A DNA stretch of 64,000 nt from Planctomycetota bacterium (GTDB taxonomy: Bacteria > Planctomycetota > Phycisphaerae > Phycisphaerales > SM1A02). Within the stretch, counting starts at the first letter, position 1, and each line of letters opens with the position of its first letter. The DNA lies in NCBI GenBank assembly GCA_003671025.1, contig QWPW01000008.1:1-64000 (forward strand). The letters are read 5' to 3'. Under the pieces are notes generated by a model. It was not told where the DNA came from and did no database searches. It saw only the letters and a list, made by a program, of their open reading frames with translations. Both the position numbers and the translations under genes were made by a program. Positions 42,578 to 47,591 of this stretch are shown in pieces.

Positions 42578-43456
42578 TCAAGCGGGGTATCGGCAACTGG
42601 TCTTGTCGGTCTCCCAAACGCGCACGAATTCGAGCCGTGAATCGATTGAGGCAAAGCGCGGCGCGAGCAATTCGTAACAGACGACCGCGATGTTCTCCAC
42701 CGAAGGATTGCGCGTTGCAAACTCGGGGCAGTCGAGATTGAGATGGCGATGGTCAAAGCGCGTGACGATTTCTTGGTGCACGACGCGTTGAATCGTCGTG
42801 AAATCGTGACTCTGCCGATCGTTGGCGTTTGTCGCGTGGTTCATCGCCACCGCAACTTCGATGCGGTAGTTGTGCCCGTGACCGTTGGGGTTGTTGCACT
42901 TTCCAAAGAGCGCTTGATTGTCCGCGTCGGAGCGATCAGAAAGGTGCAGCCGATGCGAGGCGGCGAACTCGAAAGTCTCCGTGAGCAGCAGTTGATGGGG
43001 CATAGCGGGGAGCTCTGAGAGGGTGAGAGTTGACGGACTGAGGTCGATGGTGACCGAACGAAACGGTGACTGCGCGCCGCCGCACATGGGGCTCCACGAG
43101 AGACGGGTGAGTTTCGCAGGAAGAAGAGGCGCGACGGCGCGCGCGAGTTCGGCGAGCAGCGCGGGCATCGCGGTGGGAACACCGGTCTCGCATTCGGCGC
43201 GCAGCCCGGCGGACAGGCGCGGCGTCGCCTCCGCGCGGATAACGCGGTCGATGATCGCAATGTCGACGAGGTACCCGCTTGCCGCGGGCGTGCCGACGCA
43301 CGTCACCGCGATCTCGGCGATGGCGGCGATTCCCAGCGGCGCGGGCACGCCGAGCAGGCCGTTGGCTGCCACGTTGGTCGCATCTGTCCTCGAATGAGCG
43401 CCAATCAGCGGTGAAACGCAGAGGCGAACGGTGCGGGTGAGGGAGAAGGCTTCCAT
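42578..43456 (-). CDS. Tandem 6-pyruvoyl-tetrahydropterin synthase/QueD-like protein
   Basis: A 292-residue protein. The C-terminal half (about 140-285) is a clear 6-PTPS/QueD domain: FEFAASHRLHL and NGHGHNYRIEVAV carry the zinc-binding histidines, and ESVENIAVVCYE-like and FVRVWETDKT sequences close the domain. QueD makes carboxytetrahydropterin for queuosine/7-deazaguanine synthesis; PTPS makes a tetrahydropterin precursor. The N-terminal half (1-130) looks like a diverged copy of the same fold but lacks the HGHNY histidines, so it is probably structural. ATG 43456 is used; TTG 43498 is in frame. No other queuosine gene is nearby. Confidence 0.78.
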   Translation of the reverse strand: MEAFSLTRTVRLCVSPLIGAHSRTDATNVAANGLLGVPAPLGIAAIAEIAVTCVGTPAASGYLVDIAIIDRVIRAEATPRLSAGLRAECETGVPTAMPALLAELARAVAPLLPAKLTRLSWSPMCGGAQSPFRSVTIDLSPSTLTLSELPAMPHQLLLTETFEFAASHRLHLSDRSDADNQALFGKCNNPNGHGHNYRIEVAVAMNHATNANDRQSHDFTTIQRVVHQEIVTRFDHRHLNLDCPEFATRNPSVENIAVVCYELLAPRFASIDSRLEFVRVWETDKTSCRYPA

Positions 43457-43530
43457 GGTGGTTGCGAGGGGAGCGGCGCTCGAGGGCGGTGGAATCAACT
43501 TCGAGTTCGGGGGTGGATCAGGGCGTGAAC

Positions 43531-43536
43531 TAAACT
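43531..43536 (+). promoter_or_regulatory. Possible -10 TAAACT for the ncRNA candidate
   Basis: TAAACT fits the TANNNT pattern seen before many starts in this window. It would place a transcript start near 43543, upstream of the folded RNA region. No good -35 box is visible. Confidence 0.35.
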
Positions 43537-43542
43537 GTCCAA

Positions 43543-43689
43543 ATTTCTACATCAATTCGCGCAAGGTTTGAGACAATCGTTGGCGCGGCTTCAATCTCAG
43601 GGTACTGTTTCGCCGTTGGCGCAAATACCCCATGAAACTTGCCCCCGGAAGGGCTCGGCCTGAGGCTCTGTCTCGGCCGGGCCTTTTTT
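43543..43689 (+). ncRNA. Candidate structured non-coding RNA
   Basis: A forward-strand segment of about 147 bases in a 311-base gap folds into a three-way junction. P1 is GCAAG(G)TTT 43561-43569 with AAACTTGC 43635-43642. P2 is GAGA 43570-43573 with TCTC 43595-43598. P3 is GGGTA 43600-43604 with TACCC 43626-43630, extended by TTT/AAA and CGCC/GGCG around a GTT loop. A strong terminator follows at 43651-43689. No forward gene precedes or follows within kilobases (41022 and 45981), so the terminator must end a separate transcript. I do not recognise the class; it lacks tmRNA, SRP RNA and RNase P signatures. Confidence 0.55.
43651..43689 (+). terminator. Intrinsic terminator of the ncRNA candidate
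   Basis: GGGCTCGGCC pairs with GGCCGGGCC (one bulged G), with an inner GAG/CTC pairing, followed by TTTTTT. The T run is only on the forward strand, so it does not serve the reverse gene ending at 43768. Confidence 0.85.
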
Positions 43690-43767
43690 ATTTGCAGATC
43701 TCTCCCGGCGCGGCGCACAGTCTGATGGCAAGCCTAAGCGCATCCGCAATGCATGGCGGCATCGCAC

Positions 43768-44652
43768 TCACTTGGGCAAACCTGTGATTCGAACTTGCAC
43801 GCGCGAGCCCATCGGGGGCATCCGTTCACTCCACACTTCCCACATCGGCTGCGCGGCGGAGGCGCTGTCGGGAATCACTTCGAGCGCGCCGATGGTTTCA
43901 TCGCCAAAGGTCACCAGTCCAACCAGTGAGCCTGATCCATCGGCGACATAACGCTCGACACCGGTGCGTCGATCGCGATGAAACTTCGAACCACCAAAGA
44001 TGAATCGTCGCGGCGGCGTGTTCGATGTTGGCGTGCCAATGGGAGCTGCGCGCACGAACCACTCGAGTGGATGAGACGTGCCATCGGCGAGCCTCACTTC
44101 GATCTCGAGTTCGCTGCCACGCGGCGCGATTGCCTTGAGTTGCATCGCGCCCGCTTCCGATTCGCTCGCCACTTCTTGCCATGCGCCTGGCGCTTGCGAG
44201 ATGAATCCCGCAAGCAACATGGCAGCGTGCACTTCGCTTGCGCGTCCTTCAAAGACGAACAACGCTTCGTGATCGCGCGTGCCCGCTAGACAAATGTATT
44301 GCTCGAGAAATCCGGTCTCGAGCACGGCCATGCAGTCGAGCTCGACCAACTGTTTCGCGGCGTCAACACGAATGAGCGGGGAGCATGCGACGAATGAATC
44401 CGCGAGTGAGGCGCTCGTCGGCGCGTCGCTTGCGTTCGTCTGGGCGACGATCGCGGCGGATGGGGCGGTGCTTACAGATGGGCTGCGCGTGTGCGGCGCA
44501 TCGATCGAGTGCGGCGCAGGCGTTGCCATCGTTGACTGCTCTGACGCGTTTGGCGTCGCGCATGAAGCGAGCACGATGCAGGGGACGCAGCGGACGAATG
44601 TCACAACAATCGCAAAAACCTGCAGCAAACGCGGTGTTTGCGCGATGATCAC
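43768..44652 (-). CDS. YdjY-domain lipoprotein
   Basis: A 294-residue protein starting at GTG 44652, which overlaps the ruvC stop as GTGA. The N-terminal hydrophobic stretch ends in VLASC, a lipobox, and is followed by a Ser/Thr/Ala-rich linker. From about residue 85 it matches the YdjY domain found on planctomycete secreted proteins: RVDAAKQLVELD, the LEQYICLAGTRDHEALFVF block, VHAAMLLAGF, then the FIFGGSKFHRD and YVADGSGSLVGLVTFGD blocks. The function of YdjY is unknown. It ends the operon ABC ATPase - ruvC - YdjY. The ORF-track start at 44682 (TTG) would lengthen the basic N-terminus inside ruvC. Confidence 0.75.
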   Translation of the reverse strand: MIIAQTPRLLQVFAIVVTFVRCVPCIVLASCATPNASEQSTMATPAPHSIDAPHTRSPSVSTAPSAAIVAQTNASDAPTSASLADSFVACSPLIRVDAAKQLVELDCMAVLETGFLEQYICLAGTRDHEALFVFEGRASEVHAAMLLAGFISQAPGAWQEVASESEAGAMQLKAIAPRGSELEIEVRLADGTSHPLEWFVRAAPIGTPTSNTPPRRFIFGGSKFHRDRRTGVERYVADGSGSLVGLVTFGDETIGALEVIPDSASAAQPMWEVWSERMPPMGSRVQVRITGLPK

Positions 44653-45146
44653 GCGACACCGCGCAATCGCCGAGCGCCGCACAACGCAATGCCGATCGCG
44701 TCGGCGACATCATGCGGCTCGGGCATCACCGTCAATCCGCATTGGGTCATGACGGCGCGTTGCATCTGCACTTTGGTCGCGCGGCCGTTACCTGTGAGCG
44801 CCTTCTTGACTTCCGCGGGCGGCAATTCGGCGACGGGAATCGCGCGCAGTGCCGCCGCGAGCAACACCACGCCGCGTCCGTGCGCCATCTGAATCGCAGT
44901 CGCGGCGTGCGCGCTGTGCGAGAAGATCGCCTCGAGCGCCATGTGGGTAGGCGAGTGCTCCTCGATGAGCGCGGTCACATCGTCGTGCAGTTGTTTGAGT
45001 CGCTCGATCAACGGCGCGGTCGCGCTCAAGCGAAACACGCCCGCGTCGACGATCACGCAATTGCCGCGCAGATCGGAGTCGAGCACCGCGTACCCAGCGA
45101 CGCGAGTGCCAGGATCAATGCCTAACACGCGCGCATTCGACTGCAT
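44649..45146 (-). CDS. ruvC: Crossover junction endodeoxyribonuclease RuvC
   Basis: A 165-residue Holliday-junction resolvase. The four catalytic acids are visible: LGIDPGTRVAGY near residue 9, ALEAIF near 68, and PHDVADAIGIALCGA near 145 with two Asp. It cuts junctions made by RuvAB-driven branch migration; ruvA and ruvB are not in the window. The start is ATG 45146; TTG 45182 overlaps the upstream ATPase stop but adds 12 residues not typical of RuvC. The stop overlaps the start of the YdjY lipoprotein gene, so three unrelated genes share a transcript. Confidence 0.95.
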   Translation of the reverse strand: MQSNARVLGIDPGTRVAGYAVLDSDLRGNCVIVDAGVFRLSATAPLIERLKQLHDDVTALIEEHSPTHMALEAIFSHSAHAATAIQMAHGRGVVLLAAALRAIPVAELPPAEVKKALTGNGRATKVQMQRAVMTQCGLTVMPEPHDVADAIGIALCGARRLRGVA

Positions 45147-45980: not shown

Positions 45981-47591
45981 GTGCATGATTTGAAGGACTC
46001 ATTTGAGCGGCAGTGTCGCGAAGGCGACCTGGTCATTCTCTCCCGACGATTGATGAGCGATCAGCTCACGCCTGTGCTCGCGTATCGGCGCCTCGTGCTT
46101 CCCGATCAACGCACCGCGCCGAGTTTTCTCTTTGAATCCGTGGAAAACGGCGCCAATGTCGGGCGTCATTCGATTCTCGGGGCTCGTCCGGCGCTCGAAC
46201 TCTCCGCGCACGGCTACACAACTTCAATTGTCGATCGCGTTGCGCACACGCGCCGCACGTTTGAGTCGCGCGATCCACTCGCTGAGTTGCGCGCGCTCGC
46301 GGCGCCTTTCCGTCCCGCGTCCGCGCAAGCACTTGCACCGCTCAAGTTGCCAGCGGCGTTCGTCGGTGGCTTCGTGGGTTTCGCGAGTTTCGACAGCGTG
46401 CGCTATCTCGAACCGAGCAAGTTGCCGTTTGAAAACGCGCCGCGCGATGATCGGGCGATTCCTGATTTGCACTTTGGGTTGTATCGCGATGTGGTGGTGT
46501 TCGATCATGTCGCGAAGACGATGCACGCGATTGTCTCTGCGCGCATGAGTGAATTTTCATCGAGCGAACAAGGCTTTTGCGCGTTGGTCGAGCGACTCGA
46601 TGCGCTCGAATCGCAACTGGCCGCGAACGGTCCGCCGCTCGCGCACGGAACCATCGACATCGATTTGTCACGTCGTCCCGCGACGCCGACGAGCAACCTC
46701 ACGCAACTCGAGTTTGAGCAATTGGTGTTGCGCGCACAAGAATACATTCGCGCGGGCGATGCATTTCAAATCGTGCTCTCGCAGCGACTCGAACGCAAGA
46801 CGATGTGTGATCCCTTCGATCTCTATCGCGCATTGCGGGTGGTCAATCCCAGTCCCTATCAAATCTATCTCCAAGGCGAAGGCGCGATTCTGGTCGCGTC
46901 GAGTCCGGAGATTCTCTGTCGCGTGCACGATGGTGTCGTCACCAATCGACCGCTCGCGGGAACGCGGCCGCGCGGCGCGTCGAGTGAACTTGATCTCGCG
47001 CTCGAGCGTGAGTTGCTCGCCGATGAAAAGGAACGCGCAGAGCACGTGATGTTGGTGGACCTCGGTCGCAACGATCTCGGCCGCGTGTGCGCCAGCGGTT
47101 CGATCAACATCGAGCGCTGCATGGAAGTCGAGCGCTACAGCCACGTCATGCACATCTCTTCGACAGTGACGGGACGATTGCGTCCGGAGTGCGACGCATT
47201 CGATGCGTTGCGCGCGACGCTCCCGGTGGGCACGGTGTCGGGCGCTCCGAAAGTGCGGGCAATTCAAGTGATCGACGAACTCGAACCTACGCGACGCGGG
47301 CCGTATTCCGGTGGCATCGGCGCGATTGGGTACTCGGGTGATATGGACATCGCGTTGGCGTTGCGCACGATGGTGATTCCGATTGCGCGCGATGCCGACG
47401 CGCCGTCATCGCTGGCGATTTCTGCGTCACACACCGCGACGAGTTGCGCGCCGTGGACGGTGCATCTTCAAGCGGGTGCAGGCGTCGTGCTCGACAGCAA
47501 TCCCACTGCGGAATGGCAGGAAACGCTGCATAAAGCGAGCGCACTCGGTCGCGCGATTGATCTGGCCGAGTCGGCGTTCTTGCGCGCGTGA
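45981..47591 (+). CDS. trpE: Anthranilate synthase component I
   Basis: A 536-residue enzyme that makes anthranilate from chorismate and ammonia in tryptophan synthesis. The N-terminal allosteric region has FLFESVENG (compare LLES) near residue 48. The catalytic domain contains PSPYQIYLQGEGAILVASSPE near 290, GTRPRG near 327, the DLGRNDLGRVC block near 360, and SGAPKVRAIQVIDELEP near 415. It could in principle be PabB or an isochorismate enzyme, but the overall pattern fits TrpE. The glutamine-amidotransferase partner is not adjacent. trpB lies at the far end of the window, so the trp genes are scattered. Confidence 0.93.
   Translation: MHDLKDSFERQCREGDLVILSRRLMSDQLTPVLAYRRLVLPDQRTAPSFLFESVENGANVGRHSILGARPALELSAHGYTTSIVDRVAHTRRTFESRDPLAELRALAAPFRPASAQALAPLKLPAAFVGGFVGFASFDSVRYLEPSKLPFENAPRDDRAIPDLHFGLYRDVVVFDHVAKTMHAIVSARMSEFSSSEQGFCALVERLDALESQLAANGPPLAHGTIDIDLSRRPATPTSNLTQLEFEQLVLRAQEYIRAGDAFQIVLSQRLERKTMCDPFDLYRALRVVNPSPYQIYLQGEGAILVASSPEILCRVHDGVVTNRPLAGTRPRGASSELDLALERELLADEKERAEHVMLVDLGRNDLGRVCASGSINIERCMEVERYSHVMHISSTVTGRLRPECDAFDALRATLPVGTVSGAPKVRAIQVIDELEPTRRGPYSGGIGAIGYSGDMDIALALRTMVIPIARDADAPSSLAISASHTATSCAPWTVHLQAGAGVVLDSNPTAEWQETLHKASALGRAIDLAESAFLRA

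Follow-up and report, generated by a model that had tools for sequence, protein, structure and literature searches.

What does the gap at positions 43457–43767 of the window (the whole stretch of 64 000 nucleotides of planctomycete DNA analysed here) encode? It separates two reverse-strand genes, a divergent one for a 6-pyruvoyl-tetrahydropterin synthase-like protein (PTPS; 42578–43456; PF01242, E = 2.6e-29) and a convergent one for a YdjY-domain lipoprotein-like protein (43768–44682; NF040466, E = 3.1e-23). A sequence-only reading had recognized this arrangement, which the gene identifications bear out, and had placed no forward gene within about 2.3 kb; the nearest supported one is indeed TrpE-like, at 45981, about 2.3 kb off. 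It had proposed a forward-strand RNA starting near 43531 behind a TAAACT promoter box, folded into a three-way junction of stems P1, P2 and P3 and ending in a terminator. Comparison with relatives suggests that the gap almost certainly contains a member of a real small-RNA gene family. This RNA would probably extend only from about 43615 to 43689 (approx. 75 nt) and consist of a short leader, the decamer CCCCCGGAAG and an intrinsic terminator.

We assessed the proposed fold first on the window sequence and then on its relatives. The 159-nt stretch was more stable than its shuffles with a z of −2.07 (7/200), and its reverse strand reached nearly equal stability (z −1.94). Because the complement folds almost as well, single-sequence folding is weak evidence here. 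When the window was aligned with seven relatives from its genus, P1 showed standard pairs in 65% of cells compared with 58% after shuffling, the P2/P3 region in 51% compared with 48%, and slid controls scored about equally well for the covariation of both. A DNA search of 61 relatives returned no significant counterpart of the P1–P3 region; the conserved part, present in most of them, was the terminator with the bases just 5' of it (from about 43636). The three-way junction, with pairing near that of shuffled alignments, is not conserved even within the genus. Compensatory base changes were abundant among homologues in the terminator, whereas in P1–P3 they were no better than in controls. What stands of the earlier description is the GC-rich terminator with six T residues, forward only and ending at 43689; its multi-branched body does not.

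The genus alignment also placed, by homology, a probable forward promoter at 43580–43608, with a −35 element TTGGCG (43580–43585), a 17-nt spacer and a −10 element TACTGT (43603–43608). This promoter is weak when scored alone (7/12, under our cut-off of 9/12), and it aligns with TTGACT, TTGACG or TTGACC followed by TA...T in the seven relatives. The TAAACT box at 43531 is out of register with the conserved −10 element. Since the −10 aligned in the genus is 43603–43608 and not TAAACT, the earlier 5' boundary lies about 85 nt too far upstream of the predicted start, and P1 and the 5' side of P2/P3 fall upstream of the likely promoter. The predicted leader (43615–43641, forward strand), its start set 7 nt past the −10 element, is not conserved in sequence. 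It is followed by the invariant decamer CCCCCGGAAG (43642–43651, forward strand), the most conserved feature of the locus and one that the earlier description lacked. Its CCCCC is predicted to be unpaired and its GGAAG to pair with the U-tract of the intrinsic terminator (43649–43689, forward strand; stem 43649–43687, U bulge at 43661, T-run 43684–43689).

How far this RNA extends was examined by a pattern scan and two covariance models. The pattern scan over 85 462 species genomes (GTDB) matched at least 120 stretches, and among the matches listed nearly all titles were Phycisphaerales or another planctomycete. An alphaproteobacterial match had no T-run and was set aside as a chance likeness. 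Model R1, built from 48 sequences, matched 108 of the 117 genomes of the window's family, a number taken from the listing, and in the order as a whole 177 of 301 genomes; genomes of other orders in the phylum sample gave no match. R2, a broader model built from 83 sequences, extended detection to further families of the order and found one convincing member outside it, in a genome of another order of the same class, which has CCCCCGGAAG and a stem of its own. The remaining R2 matches outside the order were weak, many of them to the terminator only. The family is found throughout the order Phycisphaerales and was previously uncatalogued; the covariance models allow immediate annotation of hundreds of genomes. 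Most of family f1 has a single copy per genome, and families f5 and f6 reach about 12. Viral contigs gave no exact match to the RNA.

Among 240 collected members, 217 carry the exact sequence CCCCCGGAA. Members of other families have in common only the terminator shape and a decamer of the form (C/A)CCCCGGAA(G/A/C). Their terminator stem occurs in versions such as GGGCTCGG/CCGGGCC, GGCGGCG/CGCCGCC, CGCCCG/CGGGCG, CCGGATCGG/CCGGTCCGG and CCCGTGTCG/CGGCGCGGG. The decamer is kept while stems are wholly replaced with compensation. Its invariance is partly ascertained, as the searches include it, although the stem columns were searched equally and vary freely. Across the alignments, the terminator was paired in 95–96% of cells with massive covariation. 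In alignment A2, 96.3% of terminator cells were paired, all 13 core stem pairs had changed on both sides, and covariation was 0.615 compared with 0.142 after shuffling; a separate set of 42 sequences (A3) gave 0.834 compared with 0.189. Both alignments were fitted to the model, and slid controls fell to about 0.03–0.16. In predicted folds of 93 members, each of the five C had an unpaired probability of 0.88–0.97 and GGAAG was mostly paired with the U-tract. The design, ten frozen bases on a terminator free to evolve, can be tested directly by mutation.

Upstream of the decamer, a sigma-70-like promoter scoring at least 9/12 was found in 106 of 239 members, compared with 12.3 ± 1.7 for shuffled sequences, and the distance from the −10 element to CCCCC peaked at 15–17 nt. 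Predicted lengths range from about 52 to 93 nt with a median of 63 nt, and many of the RNAs have just 8–10 nt before the decamer. Long leaders tend to contain a small predicted hairpin; 41 of them had a mean MFE of −8.9 kcal/mol, compared with −4.6 kcal/mol for shuffled leaders.

The sequence-only reading had put the RNA outside the known families, and the Rfam scan agrees: none of 4227 families matched at gathering score. The best-scoring family, RF00489 (ctRNA_p42d), reached 19.1 bits against a gathering score of 50, and RF02784 (SorX) 13 bits against 46.6; the likeness to both is essentially a GC-rich terminator followed by a T-run. The 6C/B11 RNAs were not among the sub-threshold Rfam matches up to E = 10. 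The window sequence CCCGGAAGGG resembles the apical hairpin of SRP RNA, CCC-GGAA-GGG. An SRP RNA mimic was rejected, since GGG is not conserved in families f5 and f6 (CCCCCGGAAGCGCC and others) and the tetraloop hairpin cannot form there. In the literature, we found no small RNA of this kind described from Phycisphaerae and no such family from Planctomycetota; papers containing the letters CCCCCGGAAG appear from their titles and abstracts to be unrelated to such an RNA.

Two known groups of small RNAs share elements of this design. Like 6C/B11 of Actinobacteria, the RNA has a highly conserved cytosine run linked to an intrinsic terminator. In B11/6C, the cytosine-rich terminator loop pairs with runs of guanine adjacent to ribosome-binding sites (PMC12395582), and the title of a 6C paper cited there presents 6C as chaperone-independent. 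The C runs of 6C/B11 lie in hairpin loops, including that of the terminator, whereas here the run is single-stranded, 5' of the stem, and followed by GGAAG. Moreover, 6C/B11 belong to a different phylum, and G-tract targets are reported for B11 but only proposed for the Phycisphaerales RNA. The anti-Shine–Dalgarno RNAs SmelA075 and SmelA099 of Rhizobiales likewise combine a fixed C-rich motif with stems that diverge freely (PMC3927594). These alphaproteobacterial RNAs carry CCUCCUCCC in three or four hairpin loops, while the RNA described here has a single CCCCCGGAAG outside the hairpin.

We then asked whether the RNA is bound to an adjacent gene. Comparing neighbourhoods among relatives, we found PTPS upstream and divergent in 80 loci, and a ydjY-like gene that follows the RNA on the same strand in 71 loci and on the opposite strand in 11. 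In family f2, UbiA and a MarR-like gene flank the RNA, and the genes beside other copies are unrelated or on the opposite strand. The neighbours thus differ from family to family. In one genus and relatives, the RNA is present beside ruvC as an oppositely oriented pair of copies at most a few hundred bases apart. As both neighbours and copy number vary between families, we consider the RNA free-standing and trans-acting. With its own promoter, a covarying terminator and order-wide conservation, this agrees with the earlier preference for a stand-alone small RNA over a riboswitch.

The best explanation of the whole, which we hold to be somewhat more probable than all others together, is a trans-acting regulatory small RNA with its own promoter and terminator that acts by base pairing through its C run. 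The family would be a new one of a known kind, probably of base-pairing regulators. The pairing mechanism itself, to which we give even chances, is proposed because 6C/B11 likewise place an accessible, unvarying C run next to a terminator, as do, in loops, the CCUCCUCCC RNAs. The five C would be kept single-stranded at the base of the terminator hairpin, with GGAAG tied to the U-tract, and would serve as a seed for G-tracts of several mRNAs. These tracts would most likely lie in or close to ribosome-binding sites, and pairing, independently of Hfq, would make the mRNAs less stable or less well translated. One seed for many targets would account for its fixity across the order despite drift in leader, stem and location, and also for multi-copy genomes with different stems and promoters. 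Hfq was not found in 41 genomes of the order by a search that detects it in E. coli, B. subtilis and other controls; since the family is conserved across an order where Hfq was not found, it offers a compact test of chaperone-free RNA regulation.

Our searches for conserved target sites covered long exact complements. The perfect complement CTTCCGGGGG has a single further occurrence in the genome, which is not conserved in G001. Over six genomes, TTCCGGGG...ATG occurred 20 times compared with 17 for the reversed control, which is not above control, and no two of the non-self sites were orthologous. The start regions of PTPS, YdjY, RuvC, ABC and TrpE genes paired with the RNA no better than shuffled sequences. 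Genome G024 contains four consecutive copies of CTTCCGGGGG, complementary to the decamer, with 15-base spacing (G024:C1:2354062-2354116).

The main rival keeps the same small RNA and takes the decamer to be the recognition site of an RNA-binding protein that the RNA carries or sequesters, or that stabilizes it. We give this about one chance in four, particularly because GGAAG is conserved though predicted to be paired, an invariance that a pure C-tract seed leaves unexplained. The constant zero distance between decamer and terminator stem would also suit a protein site, as would the failure to find a conserved mRNA complement, and with Hfq absent another partner may exist. Against it, there is no candidate protein, and to our knowledge proteins seldom require five consecutive unpaired C. 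The GGA core of CsrA-type binding is lost in 13 of the 240 members (CCCCCGAAA in 11, CCCCCAAAA in 2). A CsrA/RsmA sponge was rejected on this loss and because such a sponge needs several GGA in loops, whereas here a single conserved GGA is predicted to be mostly paired. More tentatively than the base-pairing regulator itself, which we continue to prefer, one might picture minimal RNAs forming a regulon that is order-wide and often multi-copy, with all their information in one decamer at the base of an arbitrary terminator hairpin. In these bacteria without Hfq, either a dedicated protein or a global set of mRNAs would read the decamer. This would be a new post-transcriptional control system of Planctomycetota.

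It is unlikely that the sequence is no regulator at all, being a mere conserved terminator or a selfish or attachment element copied around genomes. A mere terminator would need no invariant CCCCC, and as the RNA has its own promoter and a divergent gene upstream, there is no upstream message to terminate. Mobility is suggested by one genome (G065) in which six near-identical copies of the RNA gene lie in integrase-bearing islands, yet in most of family f1 the RNA is single-copy and syntenic. Five of the six copies lie 56–64 nt downstream of a tyrosine integrase gene, and the homology spans integrase and RNA and breaks off close to where the terminator ends, as though the RNA gene marked the terminus or attachment site for a family of mobile islands. 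An HTH_17 (excisionase-like) gene is found in one of these islands, together with a PLD/helicase gene resembling defence genes.

A cis-acting attenuator or leader of the YdjY-domain gene, or of another downstream gene, is strongly disfavoured. The terminator would suit attenuation and the 71 same-strand loci would fit it, but in the window's genus (the 11 opposite-strand loci) the YdjY-domain gene has the opposite orientation to that in most of the family with no change in the RNA, the contexts of f2 and of the other copies do not fit, and 8–10 nt before the decamer is too short for an aptamer. A riboswitch or attenuator was rejected, there being neither an aptamer upstream nor, downstream, one constant gene on the same strand. 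Finally, a three-way-junction RNA starting near 43531, for which the MFE fold of the single window sequence speaks, is highly implausible given its unconserved stems, their position partly upstream of the aligned promoter and the modest z.

One further variation was seen in genome G048, where a sub-group of members has ACCCCGGAAC decamers and GACGGCGG stems. Several copies are present, in tandem or scattered, and a similar TTGGGG...CCCC stretch precedes each of them.
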